Virus record (IMG/VR): IMGVR_UViG_3300021599_000693
Span: 1 to 37,408 of that record
DNA from: a virus
DNA length: 37,408 bases
Reading direction: 5' to 3' (one strand)
Shown in pieces: positions 1,764 through 30,255 of this stretch. The notes under the pieces are model-generated. The model saw nothing but the letters and a program-made list of their open reading frames with translations. It was not told the origin of the DNA and searched no databases. Both the position numbers and the translations under genes were made by a program. Within the stretch, counting starts at the first letter, position 1; every line of letters begins with the position of its first letter.

Positions 1764-2675
1764 ATGGAAAGACAACGAGCAACGACACAAGCAGCACATT
1801 ATGACGACTTTTCAAAAGCATTGATTGCGTCGGCAGTAAGATATCTTGGTGAAGAAGGAATCCCTTCGCTACAAAAGAAAGGTAACGAGGATGATTTCTC
1901 AAAGAAAGATCCTAAAGCTAAAGCCGCTCCAGCAGATCCTGCTATTAATTTAGCTACTGGTTCTGGTCCTAAGCAATCCCATGGTGCTGAAATTAAGTAC
2001 ACTAATGTAGTCAAAAAAGAAGAAGTAGAAACTGAAGAAACTACTATTGAAGAAGCCAAAAATAAAGAAGGTAAAGAGCAAGGTGCTGATGGCAAAGCTT
2101 GTTGGAAAGGCTATAGATATGCTGGCACCGAAAAGGGCAAAGATAAGTGTGTGAAAGAAGAAGACGAAAGCAAAGCTGAAGAAGAAAAAGAAAAGAAGAT
2201 GAGCAAGTCTGCTAAAGAAAAGCACGAGAAGGCTGAGGACAAAGCAGAGAAGAAGGCTGGTATGAAGGAACAAGTAACCCTTCAGGACATTGTTGAGAAG
2301 GCTGTGAGCAAGTCTCAGCAAAGATTTATGGGTATGGTTCACGCCAAGAAGAAAGGCGAAATGAAAGATGGATCAGAAAAAGTTGAGAAGGCTGCTGCTT
2401 CTTTAACTGCCAAGGAAGCTGAAAAGTTTGCTTCAACTAAGCATAAAGGTCTTCCTGAAAAGAAAGCTCAAAAAGAAGAGTTTGAACTAGCAGAGAAGAA
2501 GCTTGATGCTGTAGGTAAAGAAGATAAAGATATTGATAATGATGGCGATCATGATAAGTCAGATAAGTATCTTTTAAATCGTCGTAAAAAAGTTGGCAAG
2601 ATTCTTGCTGCCAAGAAAAAAGTTGATGAAATGCTCGCTTTTCATCAGGAGATGATCAACGAAAAAAAGCAATGA
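1764..2675 (+). CDS. Lys/Glu/Ala-rich conserved cyanophage protein
   Basis: 303 residues of extremely charged, low-complexity sequence (long K/E/A runs, residues 85-250) predicted helical or disordered. A compact conserved-looking patch, ACWKGYRYAGTEKGKDKC (about residues 112-129), carries two cysteines. A DIDNDGDHDKSDKYLLNRRK stretch near the C-terminus resembles a calcium-binding (dockerin/EF-like) loop. The function is not known; a late promoter and neighbouring structural genes suggest a virion or head-assembly role. Stop and next start overlap (ATGA at 2672-2675). Confidence 0.7.
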   Translation: MERQRATTQAAHYDDFSKALIASAVRYLGEEGIPSLQKKGNEDDFSKKDPKAKAAPADPAINLATGSGPKQSHGAEIKYTNVVKKEEVETEETTIEEAKNKEGKEQGADGKACWKGYRYAGTEKGKDKCVKEEDESKAEEEKEKKMSKSAKEKHEKAEDKAEKKAGMKEQVTLQDIVEKAVSKSQQRFMGMVHAKKKGEMKDGSEKVEKAAASLTAKEAEKFASTKHKGLPEKKAQKEEFELAEKKLDAVGKEDKDIDNDGDHDKSDKYLLNRRKKVGKILAAKKKVDEMLAFHQEMINEKKQ

Positions 2676-2821
2676 AGGCAGCGCCTACTGTTGAGGTGAT
2701 GCCTAATCTTCCCGACGAAAATTCTCCTGAGTACAAACAACAAAAGAAAAAACATCATAAGTATGTAAATCGTGCTTTGGATAGTCAAAGAAGAGATCCC
2801 AAACCAAATGATGCTAAATAG
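2672..2821 (+). CDS. Small basic hypothetical protein (49 aa)
   Basis: ATG at 2672 overlaps the upstream stop as ATGA, which points to translational coupling. The 49-residue product has an acidic/Pro N-terminal half (VMPNLPDENSPE) and a basic C-terminal half (KQQKKKHHKYVNR). No family is recognised. The arrangement suggests co-expression with the charged protein before it. Confidence 0.55.
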   Translation: MKAAPTVEVMPNLPDENSPEYKQQKKKHHKYVNRALDSQRRDPKPNDAK

Positions 2822-2857
2822 TTCAGGGGAACCCAAGATAGTTTAGGGAGCAGAATC

Positions 2858-3025
2858 ATGAAAGTATTTCTAGGAGTAGCTGAGAAAATTGTAGAGCATT
2901 TCATGGCTAGCCGTGAAGTCAAGGAGTTTGTTGTTAAACTACTTGAGCGTTATGCTGCTACTACAGATAACGATATTGATAATGCTATTGTTGCTATGGT
3001 AAAAAGCGCACTTCTTCGTGAGTGA
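2858..3025 (+). CDS. Small helical hypothetical protein (55 aa)
   Basis: ATG 2858 follows TTAGGGAG (2843-2850), a good Shine-Dalgarno at about 7 nt. The 55-residue product is a helix-rich amphipathic sequence (KVFLGVAEKIVEHFMASREV, then FVVKLLERYAATTDNDI). Its stop overlaps the next start as TGATG. No family is recognised. Confidence 0.6.
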   Translation: MKVFLGVAEKIVEHFMASREVKEFVVKLLERYAATTDNDIDNAIVAMVKSALLRE

Positions 3026-3177
3026 TGGAATGTTTTTTAGGAAACATTTTAGCTGACGTTTTACTTTTACTTTTACTTGCCCTTTCCGAATGGATGGGAC
3101 ATAATAAAAATATAAAAGAAAACAGTATCTATGATTGGATACATAACAAATTAAAGAAGATTGCTAGGGGAGGCTAA
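3025..3177 (+). CDS. Small single-pass membrane protein (50 aa)
   Basis: It starts in a TGATG overlap with the preceding gene. Residues 5-20 (LGNILADVLLLLLLAL) are one hydrophobic segment, followed by a polar, Lys-rich tail of about 30 residues. Function unknown; possibly a small membrane effector or a lysis accessory. Its stop lies inside the terminator hairpin. Confidence 0.6.
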   Translation: MECFLGNILADVLLLLLLALSEWMGHNKNIKENSIYDWIHNKLKKIARGG

Positions 3178-3190
3178 CTCCCCTTTTTTT
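3167..3190 (+). terminator. Intrinsic terminator
   Basis: GGGGA (3167-3171) pairs with TCCCC (3179-3183) around a 7-nt loop and is followed by seven T (3184-3190). It closes the operon of small genes and runs directly into the late promoter of the next gene. Confidence 0.85.
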
Positions 3191-5230: not shown

Positions 5231-5665
5231 ATGTTTAATAACACAATCAACAAAGAACTCGCTAAGTTAGATGTATTGGAATCTAAATTAAACATCTACG
5301 AAACACTATCAAGGGAGATGCTCGATAAGTTGGAGAATGCAGTAGATAAGATTTCTGAATCTAATCAACGTATTGCTAACATTCTCGCTAAGCATGACGA
5401 ACGTATTGACCAAAGTATTAAAACAGATGAACTCATCGTTAAAATGATCGAGGATGTTAAGCACAGTAATTCAGAAGAACATAAAGCTGTTATCAAAAGA
5501 TTAGAAACAGTTGAAAACAATGTAGCTGAATTATCAAAATTCAAATGGCAGGCGGCGGCTCTTGTGGGTGCCGCCATTTTGCTGGTTGGATTGGTGGTCC
5601 CGTTTGTTGACAACATGCTTGTCATGCGCTATGATGGGGGGACTGAGCAAACCCAACCTAGATAA
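5231..5665 (+). CDS. Coiled-coil protein with C-terminal membrane anchor
   Basis: 144 residues: a heptad-rich helix over residues 8-103, one transmembrane segment at 106-127 (WQAAALVGAAILLVGLVVPF) and a short polar tail. The layout resembles XhlA-type hemolysin/holin accessory proteins, which pair a coiled coil with one membrane span, but that is a resemblance only. Its last base is the first base of the gp61 ATG (TAATG). Confidence 0.7.
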   Translation: MFNNTINKELAKLDVLESKLNIYETLSREMLDKLENAVDKISESNQRIANILAKHDERIDQSIKTDELIVKMIEDVKHSNSEEHKAVIKRLETVENNVAELSKFKWQAAALVGAAILLVGLVVPFVDNMLVMRYDGGTEQTQPR

Positions 5666-6195
5666 TGAGTTACATTGATGTCAAGTACATTGGTCTAGTT
5701 TCCCCACAACTTCAAAAATTTTCAAAGAAAAAAGATTCCCTCTACAACTTCCGATGCCCTTACTGTGGTGACAGTAAAAAGCATCAGAACAAAACTAGAG
5801 GGTATCTTTTTAAGGTAAAGAATGATTTTGTATTCAAGTGCCACAACTGTGGTGTCGGAAGAACCTTCACTAATTTTCTGAAAGATAACTGTCCTCACCT
5901 CCACAATCAGTATGTGATGGAGCGTTATCGTGAAGGTCTTACTGGCAAGAATACTCAAACCAAAAATCCAGATTTCAATTTCAGTAAACCTGAATTTCAG
6001 AAAAGGAAAACAGGAATTGATCTAGAAAAGATTTCAGAACTAAATATTACACACCCAGCTCGGGTGTACCTAGAAGAAAGAAAAATTAAAGATCTCGATT
6101 ACTTTTACTACTGTCCCAAATTTAAAGAATGGACGAACTCACAGCGAAAAGTTTTCCCAAACTTGAAGCAAGATGGTCCTAGAATTATATTCTAA
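5665..6195 (+). CDS. 61: DNA primase gp61, N-terminal part (disrupted gene)
   Basis: A zinc-binding module CPYC (about residues 30-33) and CHNC (about 56-59) followed by the linker typical of T4-type gp61. The frame then stops at TAA 6193-6195 just after DGPRIIF. In intact gp61 proteins this point is followed by roughly 35-45 more residues leading into the TOPRIM domain. Here that stretch is absent and the TOPRIM part continues in another frame. gp61 makes RNA primers with helicase gp41, so this break would abolish a normal primase unless it is a sequence error. Confidence 0.85.
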   Translation: MSYIDVKYIGLVSPQLQKFSKKKDSLYNFRCPYCGDSKKHQNKTRGYLFKVKNDFVFKCHNCGVGRTFTNFLKDNCPHLHNQYVMERYREGLTGKNTQTKNPDFNFSKPEFQKRKTGIDLEKISELNITHPARVYLEERKIKDLDYFYYCPKFKEWTNSQRKVFPNLKQDGPRIIF

Positions 6196-6553
6196 GACCA
6201 AGATATTTGGGATGGACAGGGTAAACGAAGACAAACCAATCTATGTTACTGAAGGACCATTTGATAGTATGTTCCTCTCTAATAGCATTGCTATGTGTGG
6301 TAGTGACGTTAGTATGAATAATAAAAATGTGGTGTATGTCTTTGATAACGAACCCAGAAACAAAGAGATCGTATCCAAATACGAAAAAACAATTAATAAT
6401 GGAGAACCGATAGTTATTTGGCCACAACATATTGTTGAAAAAGACATCAACGATATGGTGATGGCTGGACATGATGTTCAAAATGTGGTAGAATCAAACA
6501 CCTATCAAGGCTTAGAAGCAAAACTTAAATTTACAACCTGGAAGAAAGTATGA
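6173..6553 (+). CDS. 61: DNA primase gp61, C-terminal TOPRIM part (disrupted gene)
   Basis: Homology to gp61 begins near 6191 (KTKIFGMDRV). It contains the TOPRIM glutamate motif YVTEGPFDSMFL and the acidic motif VVYVFDNEPRNKE that carry the catalytic metal ions. A nominal ATG at 6173 lies in sequence that encodes the N-terminal half in another frame and is probably not a real start. The stop overlaps the nrdA ATG (ATGA, 6550-6553). Two-part primases do exist, but the missing middle argues for a deletion. Confidence 0.82.
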   Translation: MVLELYSKTKIFGMDRVNEDKPIYVTEGPFDSMFLSNSIAMCGSDVSMNNKNVVYVFDNEPRNKEIVSKYEKTINNGEPIVIWPQHIVEKDINDMVMAGHDVQNVVESNTYQGLEAKLKFTTWKKV

Positions 6554-8265
6554 GCAACGGCATTAAAGTTCAAAAACGTGATGGCAGTATTGAAGCTTTA
6601 AATCTAGATAAGATTCATCGTATGGTAGATGAAGCTTGTGATGGACTTGCTGGAGTTTCTGCCTCACAAGTAGAAATGAATTCGGGGATTCAATTCTATG
6701 ATGGCATTACTACAGCGGAAATTCAAGAAATTCTGATTCGTTCTGCTAGTGATTTAATTTCTCTAGATAATCCTAATTATCAATTCGTAGCTGCCCGTCT
6801 TCTTTTGTTTGCTCTTCGTAAACAAGTGTTCCATAAAAACATTTGGAAAGAAGGTATGCCTGGCATTTATGATGTAGCTCTTTATAATTCAACTGTATTG
6901 AAAGTGTACGACGAAGAAATTCTCGACAAATACGCTGATGAAGATTGGGCAAAAATTAATAGTTGGATTGATCATGATCGTGATTATCTATTTTCCTATG
7001 CTGGTTTACGTCAAGTAGTTGATAAGTATCTTGTACAAGACAGGAGCAGTGGAGATATTTACGAAACTCCTCAGTATATGTACATGATGATTGCTTTAAC
7101 TCTTTTTGCTGAATATCCCCTGTCAGTAAGATTAGATTACGTTCGCCGTTACTACAATGCCATCAGCAAGCACAAGATCAACATCCCCACGCCAATCATG
7201 GCAGGAGTTAGAACAACCCTTAGACAATTTGCTAGTTGTGTTCTCATTGATTCTGATGACACCCTCAATAGCATCTTTAGCAGCGACATGGCTATTGGGC
7301 GTTATGTTGCTCAAAGGGCGGGCATCGGCATCAACGCTGGTAGAATCCGTGGAGTCAACAGTAAGATCCGAGGGGGAGAAGTTGCTCATACAGGGGTTAT
7401 CCCATTCCTCAAAAAGTTTGAAGCAACTGTCAGATGCTGTACACAAAACGGGATTCGTGGTGGAAGTGCTACTGTCCACTTTCCAATCTGGCACCAAGAA
7501 ATAGAGGACATTATTGTTCTCAAAAATAACAAAGGAACGGAGGACAACCGTGTACGCAAACTCGATTATTCCATTCAGATCTCGAAGATCTTTTACGAAA
7601 GGTTCATTCAAAATGGAGAGATCACCTTATTTTCTCCCCATGATGTCCCTGGTCTTTATGATGCTTTCGGCACTGATGAGTTTGATAATTTGTATACCTC
7701 TTACGAATCAGATCCTTCAATCCCAAAGAAGCGAATTGGTGCTCAAGAATTAATTCTCGACCTTCTCAAAGAACGTGCTGAGACTGGTCGTATTTACATC
7801 ATGAATATTGACCACTGTAATACACATTCTTCTTTCAAAGATAAAGTTTACATGTCCAATCTGTGTCAAGAGATTACCCTTCCTACAGATCCTCTTGAGC
7901 ATATTGATGGTGATGGTGAGATTGCTCTTTGTATTCTTTCTGCTATTAATGTCGGTAAGCTTAAGAACTTAGATGAACTTGAAGAACTTTGTGATCTTGC
8001 TGTTCGTGGTTTGGAAGAACTGATTGATTATCAGAACTATCCAATTAAAGCTGCCGAACTATCTACCAAGAATCGTCGTTCACTTGGTATTGGCTACATT
8101 GGTCTTGCTCACTATCTTGCTAAACACGGAGAACATTATGACGATCCAAAAGCATGGAAACTCGTCCACGACCTTACTGAAGCTTTCCAGTACTATTTGC
8201 TCAGAGCATCAAATGCCATTGCCCAGGAAAAAGGAGCCTGTGGATATTTTGATAGTCAGCTATGA
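6550..8265 (+). CDS. nrdA: Ribonucleotide reductase class Ia, large subunit NrdA, main part (disrupted gene)
   Basis: 571 residues: ATP-cone at about 5-95, then the ten-stranded barrel. Catalytic residues are visible: C230 in QFASCVLIDSDDTL, N437/C439/E441 in SNLCQEI (thiyl radical loop) and C461. The frame ends at TGA 8263-8265 just after GACGYFD. Compared with E. coli NrdA, about 27 residues between this point and the YDWE motif are missing, and the remainder lies in another frame. NrdA makes dNDPs for phage replication, and nrdB follows directly. Confidence 0.92.
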   Translation: MSNGIKVQKRDGSIEALNLDKIHRMVDEACDGLAGVSASQVEMNSGIQFYDGITTAEIQEILIRSASDLISLDNPNYQFVAARLLLFALRKQVFHKNIWKEGMPGIYDVALYNSTVLKVYDEEILDKYADEDWAKINSWIDHDRDYLFSYAGLRQVVDKYLVQDRSSGDIYETPQYMYMMIALTLFAEYPLSVRLDYVRRYYNAISKHKINIPTPIMAGVRTTLRQFASCVLIDSDDTLNSIFSSDMAIGRYVAQRAGIGINAGRIRGVNSKIRGGEVAHTGVIPFLKKFEATVRCCTQNGIRGGSATVHFPIWHQEIEDIIVLKNNKGTEDNRVRKLDYSIQISKIFYERFIQNGEITLFSPHDVPGLYDAFGTDEFDNLYTSYESDPSIPKKRIGAQELILDLLKERAETGRIYIMNIDHCNTHSSFKDKVYMSNLCQEITLPTDPLEHIDGDGEIALCILSAINVGKLKNLDELEELCDLAVRGLEELIDYQNYPIKAAELSTKNRRSLGIGYIGLAHYLAKHGEHYDDPKAWKLVHDLTEAFQYYLLRASNAIAQEKGACGYFDSQL

Positions 8266-8788
8266 TTGGGAAGAACTTAGAGCATCGATCTTGGCTCACG
8301 GTCTTAGGCACTCAACATTGTCCGCACAGATGCCATCGGAGAGCAGCTCCGTTGTGTCAAACGAAACTAATGGAATCGAACCTCCTAGAGATTACTTGTC
8401 CGTTAAGAAATCAAAGAAAGGACCTCTCAAGCAGATTGTCCCCTCTTATCAATCTCTTAAGAACAACTATACGCTTCTTTGGGATATGCCTGACAATACT
8501 GGTTATATCAATATTGTTGCTGTTATGCAGAAGTTCTTTGATCAGGCAATCTCGGGTAACTGGTCGTATAATCCAGAAAATTATGCCGATAATGAAGTAC
8601 CTGTGTCGGTAATGGCTCAAGACTTTTTAAATACTTATAAGTATGGTTGGAAAACTTCTTACTATCAAAATACTTATGATGCTAAGAAAGATGAGCCAAT
8701 TGATGAACAGAAAAAACAGGATATTGAATCCATGCTTGACGAACTACTAAACCTACAGGAGGATGATTGTGACAGTTGTAAAATTTAA
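8261..8788 (+). CDS. nrdA: NrdA C-terminal part in a shifted frame (disrupted gene)
   Basis: There is no start codon of its own: the homologous sequence begins with YDWEELRASILAHGLR and runs to the redox tail DDCDSCKI. It includes the STLSAQMPSESSSVVSN phosphate-binding motif, NGIEPPR, and the radical-transfer tyrosine pair in SYYQNTYD. This part is essential for NrdA activity and is only useful if joined to the preceding frame. The break centres on ATAG/CTAT (8252-8263). It overlaps the long form of nrdB by 26 bp. Confidence 0.88.
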   Translation, partial: YDWEELRASILAHGLRHSTLSAQMPSESSSVVSNETNGIEPPRDYLSVKKSKKGPLKQIVPSYQSLKNNYTLLWDMPDNTGYINIVAVMQKFFDQAISGNWSYNPENYADNEVPVSVMAQDFLNTYKYGWKTSYYQNTYDAKKDEPIDEQKKQDIESMLDELLNLQEDDCDSCKI

Positions 8789-9992: not shown

Positions 9993-10331
9993 ATGAGAGT
10001 ACAATCAGCGAAAGCAAAAGGTCGTCGTCTTCAGCAATGGGTTCGTGATAAACTTATTGAAATGTTAGATGTTCATCCCGAAGACATTGAATCCAGATCA
10101 ATGGGAGCTGGCGGAGAAGATTTAATTATGGCTAGAGCAGCTAGACAAAAGTTTCCTTACAGCATTGAATGTAAAAATGTAGAAAAATTAAATGTTTGGG
10201 AAGCATACGAACAAGCTCAAGCAAACTCAGGTGATTATGAACCAATTGTTGTCATGAAAAAGAATGGCAAAAAGCCATTGGTCGTAGTAGATGCCGAGTA
10301 TTACATTCAACTTCACGGAGAAAAACAATGA
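9993..10331 (+). CDS. PD-(D/E)XK endonuclease/resolvase-like protein
   Basis: 112 residues. The nuclease core is visible as SMGAGGEDL (E42, D43) followed by YSIECKN (E59-x-K61) and a C-terminal Gln-rich helix. This is the layout of small PD-(D/E)XK nucleases such as Holliday-junction resolvases and VRR-NUC-like proteins. A DNA-processing role late in infection is inferred. Its start is set by AAGGAGG inside the upstream hairpin. Its stop overlaps the peptidase ATG (ATGA), so it is translated with the endolysin. Confidence 0.7.
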   Translation: MRVQSAKAKGRRLQQWVRDKLIEMLDVHPEDIESRSMGAGGEDLIMARAARQKFPYSIECKNVEKLNVWEAYEQAQANSGDYEPIVVMKKNGKKPLVVVDAEYYIQLHGEKQ

Positions 10332-11032
10332 AAATTACATTACAAAATTTCTTTGAACACTTTGATAAGAATAATCCTAATCACGTAAAAGCAGTTCAAT
10401 TGTTTTTACAAGCTCTAGAAAAATCAGCACCAGAAGAACTAGAAGATACTTCTGGCTGGGTTAAAACATTCAGAACACCTGTTCAAAAACAAGCAAGCAA
10501 TATCTTAGAAAACTTTCCTTGGTTTCCTCAGACAGATAATTATAGAGATGCTCAGAGAACTTGTAATAGTTCTGCCTGTGCTATGTGTCTAGAGTATTTG
10601 AAACCAGGCACACTCAAAGGATCCAAAGGTGATGATGCTTATGTTCAAAAAGTATTTGCTACAGGTGATACCACAGATCATACAGTTCAAACTCGTGTGT
10701 TGATGTCGTATGGTATCAACTCTGCTTTCAGATATAATTTAACTTTTGCTGATCTTGATCGTGAACTTGCTGCCAAACGTCCAGTGGTAATTGGCATCCT
10801 TCACAGGGGGTCTCTAGCAGCCCCTACAGGCGGTCATATGGTTGTTGTGGTCGGGAAGACCCCATCAGGCGACTACATCGTTCACGACCCTTATGGAAGC
10901 CTTAACGACGGCTATACGGGTCCTGTAACAAATGGTAAGGGAGCAGTCTATAAACGTTCTGAGCTAGCTCGTAGATGGTGCCCTGGCGGCAATGATGGTT
11001 GGGGTAGAATTTTTGATGCTGTAAAAAAGTAG
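10328..11032 (+). CDS. C39-like cysteine peptidase domain (short form of the endolysin)
   Basis: 234 residues. The papain-like triad is visible: Cys in RTCNSSACAM, His in GGHMVVVVG, Asp in IVHDPYG. This is the C39-like/NlpC-type fold, expected to cut peptide bonds in peptidoglycan. The N-terminal 75 residues are helical. The frame ends in AAA AAG TAG, where A AAA AAG is a classic -1 slippery heptamer. The lysozyme domain follows in the -1 frame, so this ORF may be only the unshifted product. It overlaps the nuclease gene by ATGA. Confidence 0.8.
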   Translation: MKITLQNFFEHFDKNNPNHVKAVQLFLQALEKSAPEELEDTSGWVKTFRTPVQKQASNILENFPWFPQTDNYRDAQRTCNSSACAMCLEYLKPGTLKGSKGDDAYVQKVFATGDTTDHTVQTRVLMSYGINSAFRYNLTFADLDRELAAKRPVVIGILHRGSLAAPTGGHMVVVVGKTPSGDYIVHDPYGSLNDGYTGPVTNGKGAVYKRSELARRWCPGGNDGWGRIFDAVKK

Positions 11033-11062
11033 AAGGTTCTACTCTCACGGCGGGAGTAGAAC
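11023..11062 (+). promoter_or_regulatory. Candidate programmed -1 ribosomal frameshift site
   Basis: The heptamer A AAA AAG (11023-11029) is in the zero-frame phase X XXY YYZ, followed at once by TAG (11030-11032). After a 6-nt spacer (11030-11035) comes a hairpin: GTTCTACTC (11036-11044) pairs perfectly with GAGTAGAAC (11054-11062). The stem can extend inward by a U-G and a C-G pair. This matches the dnaX-type arrangement of slip site plus downstream stem. There is no T-tract, so it is not a terminator. A loss of linker sequence is the competing explanation. Confidence 0.7.
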
Positions 11063-11499
11063 TCATCAAAGAATTTGAAAGTTGCCATTTAAAATCATAT
11101 CCAGATCCGAAAACTGGTAGAGAACCAATCACTATTGGTTGGGGAAGTACTAAAGATTTTGATGGCAGTCCTTTTAAACTTGGAAGAGTTATCACACAAA
11201 AGTATGCTGATACTCTATTTGATTTTGATTTGAAAAATAGATTCCTTCCACAACTTATAAAAATACCATATTGGAGCGAAATGAATGACAATCAAAGAGG
11301 GGCTTTACTTTGCTTTGCTTATAATCTTGGTGGAGATTTTTATGGTCATCCTGACTTCAATACTATTACGAGGGTCTTGAAGAATAAAGAATGGTCTAAA
11401 GTACCTGATGCCCTTTATCTTTATAGAAATCCTGGTAGTAATGTAGAGGCAGGATTAGCGAGAAGAAGAAAAGCAGAAGGAAAACTTTGGGTTTCTTAA
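11029..11499 (+). CDS. GH24 lysozyme domain of the endolysin, -1 frame (fusion spans 10328-11499)
   Basis: The domain reads GVELIKEFESCHLKSY, then PITIGWGST, and ends NPGSNVEAGLARRRKAEG. The T4-lysozyme-type catalytic Glu (KEFES), Asp (YPDP) and Thr (ITIGWG) are present. The frame is closed just upstream by TGA 11014-11016. No ATG, GTG or TTG occurs before TTG 11230, which lies past the catalytic residues, so independent initiation of a working domain is unlikely. A -1 slip at A AAA AAG gives a peptidase-lysozyme fusion of about 390 residues that would cleave both the peptide and glycan parts of the host wall. Confidence 0.85.
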   Translation, partial: VEGSTLTAGVELIKEFESCHLKSYPDPKTGREPITIGWGSTKDFDGSPFKLGRVITQKYADTLFDFDLKNRFLPQLIKIPYWSEMNDNQRGALLCFAYNLGGDFYGHPDFNTITRVLKNKEWSKVPDALYLYRNPGSNVEAGLARRRKAEGKLWVS

Positions 11500-29175: not shown

Positions 29176-30255
29176 ATGACTGCTACTCTCGCTCAACAGC
29201 GTGGAAGCAACACTTGGGAACAATTCTGTGAGTGGGTGACTTCTACCAACAATCGTCTTTACGTTGGTTGGTTCGGAACTCTAATGATTCCAACCCTTCT
29301 CGCCGCTACTATCTGTTTCATTGTTGCTTTTATTGCTGCCCCTCCTGTCGATATTGACGGCATCCGTGAACCTGTTGCTGGTTCTCTAATGTATGGAAAC
29401 AACATCATCTCTGGTGCTGTTGTTCCTTCAAGCAACGCTATCGGACTTCATTTTTATCCCATTTGGGAAGCAAATTCACTCGATGAGTGGCTATATAATG
29501 GTGGACCTTTCCAACTAATCGTCTTCCACTTTTTGATTGGTATCTATGCTTACATGGGTCGTGAATGGGAACTATCTTACCGACTGGGTATGCGTCCTTG
29601 GATTTGTGTTGCCTACTCAGCACCCGTTGCTGCTGCTAGCGCAGTTTTTCTGGTCTATCCCTTCGGTCAAGGATCCTTCTCTGACGCTATGCCTCTGGGG
29701 ATTTCGGGAACTTTCAACTACATGCTTGTTTTCCAGGCAGAACACAACATTCTTATGCACCCTTTCCACATGCTGGGAGTTGCTGGTGTCTTCGGTGGTT
29801 CTCTTTTCTCTGCTATGCACGGATCTCTTGTCACCTCTAGTCTTGTACGTGAGACGACAGAAACTGAATCCCAAAACTATGGATACAAGTTCGGTCAAGA
29901 AGAAGAAACCTACAACATTGTAGCTGCTCATGGATATTTTGGTCGTCTTATTTTTCAGTACGCTAGTTTTAATAACTCTCGTAGTCTTCACTTTTTCTTG
30001 GCAGCTTGGCCTGTTGTCGGTATTTGGTTCGCTGCTCTGGGCGTGTCAACCATGGCGTTCAACCTGAATGGTTTCAACTTCAACCAGTCCCTGCTTGATA
30101 GCAGCGGTCGTGTGGTTAACACTTGGGCTGACATTCTCAACCGTGCTAACCTTGGCTTCGAAGTGATGCACGAGCGTAATGCTCATAACTTCCCTCTCGA
30201 CCTTGCTGCTGCTGATATGACCCCTGTTGCTCTTACGGCACCAGCCATCGGTTGA
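29176..30255 (+). CDS. psbA: Photosystem II D1 protein
   Basis: 359 residues, colinear with cyanobacterial D1: five-helix core, [43 protein letters not shown] with the chlorophyll/iron His, and a C-terminal extension ending TAPAIG for CtpA processing. Residue 130 is Glu, as in the high-light D1:2 form of Synechococcus. Phage D1 replaces the rapidly turned-over host D1 during infection. The gene is intact, with no intron or endonuclease insertion. It is preceded by early and late promoters and followed by a strong terminator. Confidence 0.99.

Follow-up and report, generated by a model that had tools for sequence, protein, structure and literature searches.

A conserved slippery heptamer and hairpin between a C39-like peptidase and a GH24 lysozyme suggest programmed -1 frameshifting in a cyanophage endolysin

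Background

The closest described counterpart of the locus studied here is E. coli dnaX (tau/gamma), in which the heptamer A AAA AAG, a short spacer and a 3' hairpin allow one gene to yield two products. Slippage at this heptamer is favoured where a single tRNA-Lys (UUU) decodes both AAA and AAG. The upstream Shine-Dalgarno (SD)-like stimulator of dnaX is not universal to -1 frameshift sites, and its absence is not disqualifying. In insertion sequence (IS) elements and in the phage tail-chaperone genes (lambda G/GT), slippage fuses an upstream ORF to an ORF in the -1 frame; the lambda heptamer is G GGA AAG (PMC7618472), which differs from A AAA AAG. The lysis gene of MS2 offers another parallel, being a shifted-frame phage lysis gene that overlaps the gene upstream of it. 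Frameshifting was once proposed for the MS2 gene. Judging from titles in the reference list of PMC5009743, later work attributes activation of the gene to termination at the coat gene stop. Homologous endolysins of the ACG-2014f type (PHROG 3617) carry C39 and GH24 domains in the order described below, but in one frame, so that their fusion needs no frameshift.

No description of a frameshifted endolysin was found by title or abstract in the open-access literature searched, an absence that is not proof of novelty. Neither "endolysin" nor "cyanophage" is mentioned in the available text of the Atkins 2016 review or in the body of the GeneTack survey of 2013. The apparent novelty lies not in the mechanism, which is known, but in its use by a conserved family of endolysins.

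The window analysed is the whole 37,408-nucleotide viral stretch IMGVR_UViG_3300021599_000693. A psbA-type gene (29257-30153), five tRNA genes and closest isolate relatives among Synechococcus phages (Kyanoviridae) fit a cyanophage origin.

Results

The junction. A 0-frame ORF on the plus strand (10328-11032) encodes a 234-residue C39-like peptidase with an N-terminal module, matching Peptidase_C39_2 (PF13529, E 7e-11) and PHROG 3617 (E 3e-95) in profile searches. Its 3' end reads GTA AAA AAG TAG, which places the heptamer A AAA AAG in phase at 11023-11029, abutting the stop codon TAG at 11030-11032; the stop itself makes up the first three nucleotides of the spacer. From 11029 the -1 frame is uninterrupted up to 11499 and encodes a 156-residue GH24 lysozyme (VEGSTL...LWVS), over the full domain of which Phage_lysozyme (PF00959) matches with an E value of 4e-19. 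The earliest ATG, GTG or TTG in this frame is TTG 11230, 67 codons 3' of the shift site and 3' of the catalytic E, D and T. The initial annotation had described the in-phase heptamer before TAG and a GH24 domain in the -1 frame with no usable start before 11230, and both hold. The lysozyme would thus be entered via a frameshift, giving a fusion of about 390 residues. A distinct contig that is 99.7% identical to the window (L115) has an identical junction.

Survey of relatives. Approximately 270 related loci were collected from IMG/VR and a phage collection. Counted with redundancy, the lysozyme lay in the -1 frame relative to the peptidase in 171 loci and in the +1 frame in none; it was fused in frame in 33 and followed an intervening stop in the same frame in 18, and 39 loci had the peptidase alone. 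PHROG 3617 covers both domains, and natural fusions of the two in one frame exist. A single-ORF fusion in S-CREM1 (2006-3187) has the reverse order, with lysozyme first and peptidase second.

Removal of identical junctions left 97 in the -1 frame. The heptamer was present in 83 of these, always in the same phase, either abutting the stop (69) or one codon earlier (14); the stop varies among TAG, TAA and TGA, and no -1 junction carried AAAAAAG out of phase. None of the 27 non-identical peptidase-alone genes and none of the 10 non-identical genes with a same-frame stop had it. Given that A AAA AAG occurs in phase only five times in the 7,133 codons of the window ORFs, its placement at the end of the peptidase exceeds chance. 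Among the 83 relatives the peptidase motifs GH and (H/N)DP are kept in 82 and the lysozyme catalytic motif E-D-T in 80. In codons 3' of the stem, differences per -1-frame codon position amount to 2.1/0.8/5.4, and, judging from these sequences, the -1 frame is evolving under purifying selection.

The hairpin. RNAfold predicts a putative stimulatory hairpin with a 5' arm at 11035-11046 and a 3' arm at 11052-11063, comprising 12 bp (two of them G-U) closed by a 5-nt loop; the 3' arm encodes the start of the lysozyme G-V-x-L motif in the -1 frame. The perfect 9-bp stem that had been noted previously (11036-11044 with 11054-11062) is present as the core of this longer helix, and the 6-nt spacer reported with it applies to that core, becoming 5 nt if all 12 bp are counted. 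The minimum free energy is -17.3 kcal/mol, a z score of -4.7 relative to dinucleotide-shuffled sequences, which average -6.4 +/- 2.3; none of the 200 shuffles reached so low a value.

Arm sequences diverge widely by lineage (e.g., GTTCTACTC/GAGTAGAAC, TCAACACCAC/GTGGTGTTGA, GCCAACTAAC/GTTAGTTGGC and GTCCCACTAC/GTAGTGGGGT), and despite this divergence the pairing is retained, in three main registers one codon apart. The position of the 5' arm thus tracks that of the 3' arm, in which part of the conserved G-V-x-L region is encoded. Mean stem length in the relatives is 10.6 bp versus 6.4 bp when codons are shuffled. Own arms formed a helix of 10.6 bp versus 4.7 +/- 0.5 for swapped arms in 56 non-identical pairs, a pooled comparison biased toward structure because registers were picked by best pairing; the register-0 group by itself had no excess in this test. 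On loop-free arm alignments, 91.7% of cells were paired in register 6 (21 sequences) and 91.2% in register 3 (19 sequences), and in each register 6 of the 12 pairs had changes in both arms, whereas slid registers paired at just 28-59%. The covariation score was matched by 0 of 500 shuffles in either group, the shuffles being made within the group at one fixed register and the statistics coming from related, non-independent sequences. The alignment with relatives that the initial annotation had proposed therefore finds heptamer, stop and stem conserved, with compensatory changes.

Folding energy as the sole discriminator was dropped, since in-frame fusions lacking the heptamer are equally stable (-16.9 versus -17.5 for frameshift junctions). 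By eye, no SD-like element was seen about 10 nt 5' of the heptamer in the upstream bases of the window or of the relatives' junctions, a difference from dnaX. As a separate observation, TTTTTGATG (11010-11018) is complementary to CATCAAAGA (11064-11072), a pairing that would enclose heptamer and hairpin; it is possibly due to chance, both segments encoding conserved motifs.

Isolates and alternative sites. The frameshift junction is carried by isolate S-PM2, with an equal frame offset in a second record. Isolate S-CAM7 has the heptamer T TTT TTT (U UUU UUU) and a different stem, with an equal offset in three records; this stem is bulged, with 13 bp, -16.7 kcal/mol and z -4.9. The heptamer and the stem (GTAGAACC/GGTTCTAC) are shared with one further locus (L091). 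In a peptidase-domain tree of 128 rows, built with a quick method and having many weak branches, the two are nested within a clade of fusions in one frame (SH-aLRT support 95 and 100), and on the strength of this position the S-CAM7-type site was probably gained separately. Two in-frame fusions with seven A residues (L065 and L079) adjoin frameshift relatives with six, so single-base changes appear to interconvert the two states. Relatives with both domains in one frame or with another number of A residues, which the initial annotation had set against its own reading, do exist, but as a minority seen in the ACG-2014f clade and at these two A7 junctions.

ACG-2014f-type phages and one further locus (L200) have the fusion in frame 0 and nevertheless retain A AAA AAG in phase, followed after 5-6 nt by a hairpin; a -1 slip would there meet TGA one codon on. 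A tentative reading, to which we give somewhat less than an even chance, is that two-product output is kept whichever frame holds the fusion: slippage in these phages would yield the peptidase alone, as in dnaX, and one-base indels would swap the default product. The -1 TGA also occurs in related in-frame fusions without the heptamer, and the dnaX-like polarity may therefore be incidental.

Discussion

The window junction is very probably a site of dnaX/IS-type -1 programmed ribosomal frameshifting that yields a 234-residue peptidase and a 390-residue peptidase-lysozyme. An X XXY YYZ heptamer stands in phase ahead of the 0-frame stop; a structure follows at short spacing and covaries; and the -1 extension is conserved without a start of its own, apart from relatives with an overlapping start. 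The two-product interpretation made from the window gains support from the comparison in phase, run length, spacing and paired stem. Under this model, the majority of ribosomes would stay in frame 0 at A AAA AAG and terminate, releasing the peptidase alone. Some would be stalled by the hairpin, whereupon tRNA-Lys would re-pair on AAA AAA, and the slipped ribosomes would go on to translate the lysozyme in the -1 frame, giving the fusion. The -1 product of dnaX is the short one, a polarity that ACG-2014f and L200 would share, whereas in the window and S-PM2 it is the long one. Slippage joins ORFs as in IS elements and lambda G/GT, but here it concerns a lysis enzyme.

Slippage could instead be transcriptional, with RNA polymerase inserting an A and the A7 mRNA being translated as an in-frame fusion. 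The A run and the genomic A7 versions speak for this, as does the run of eight T in S-CAM7, a length that makes polymerase slippage more plausible. Polymerase slippage, however, disregards phase and prefers longer runs; 82 of the 83 heptamer junctions have precisely six A before the G, the phase always suits two-codon tRNA slippage, and a hairpin 3' of the run is as yet unmade while the polymerase traverses it. We therefore consider the transcriptional route very unlikely and infer that slippage is by ribosomes.

The lysozyme might also be translated separately, whether by reinitiation or from an internal start or a non-AUG start 3' of the peptidase stop; the family offers some precedent. Among the 97 junctions, 71 carry the heptamer and no start that overlaps the stop, both features occur together in 12, an overlapping start (NTGA, i.e., ATGA, GTGA or TTGA) occurs without the heptamer in 11, and three have neither, two of these being of the S-CAM7-like U7 type and one a separate gene; wholly separate lysozyme genes also occur in some relatives. 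Heptamer and overlapping start thus appear to complement each other across -1 junctions. Reinitiation may occur at the 12 junctions having both, and for NTGA relatives activation may be termination-dependent, by analogy with MS2. Against separate translation as a general account, 33 of the 77 heptamer junctions with a located catalytic Glu, the window included, lack any -1-frame ATG, GTG or TTG before it, no codon common to relatives replaces a start, and heptamer phase and stem are left unexplained. A non-AUG start within the stem region was sought, and no conserved candidate was seen. This route is even less probable than transcriptional slippage. Elsewhere in the window, an ORF at 1764-2675 ends GAA AAA AAG CAA TGA (2661-2675), where A AAA AAG lies in phase ahead of an ATGA overlap in which a small ORF starts at 2672, a layout matching the S-SRM01 endolysin junction.

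Least probable of all is that the junction reflects gene decay or an indel introduced by sequencing or assembly. Other genes of the window do look frame-broken, namely nrdA near 8265 and primase-like ORFs near 6180 (in full, within 5665-8788: primase-like ORFs at 5665-6195 and 6173-6553, and nrdA at 6550-8265 and then 8024-8788). Dozens of distinct contigs nevertheless share the identical state, as do isolate genomes, the -1 frame appears to be under purifying selection and the catalytic motif is retained; the small indel or linker loss that had been offered as the alternative is contradicted, for the family, by this conserved -1 state. An intron or intein is ruled out, there being no gap and only a one-base frame change.

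Programmed frameshifting also accounts for annotations of "lysin" that miss the catalytic N-terminal part. The "putative lysin" of S-PM2 is annotated only at 116499-116717 and that of S-CAM7 also begins late, because there is no upstream start codon in that frame. PHROG 10457 ("endolysin", 95 positions) matches just lysozyme residues 83-156, the C-terminal half (query window 11029-11496), and was probably built from truncated annotations.

Slippage would set the ratio of the two products and may serve to keep a fixed share of the lysozyme joined to the peptidase, N-terminal module included. Separate lysozyme genes in some relatives (L206, L216, L222 and DSL-LC03, at approximately 40-45% identity) bear their own copy of that module; the remaining separate lysozymes are without it. 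One reading is that frameshifting endows a limited share of the lysozyme with the module. The lineage-specific slippery sites suggest that two-product output is under selection. If the frameshift reading is true, it would be a conserved instance in which programmed frameshifting determines how much of a lysis enzyme is made, in cyanophages that are widespread and include the laboratory phage S-PM2.
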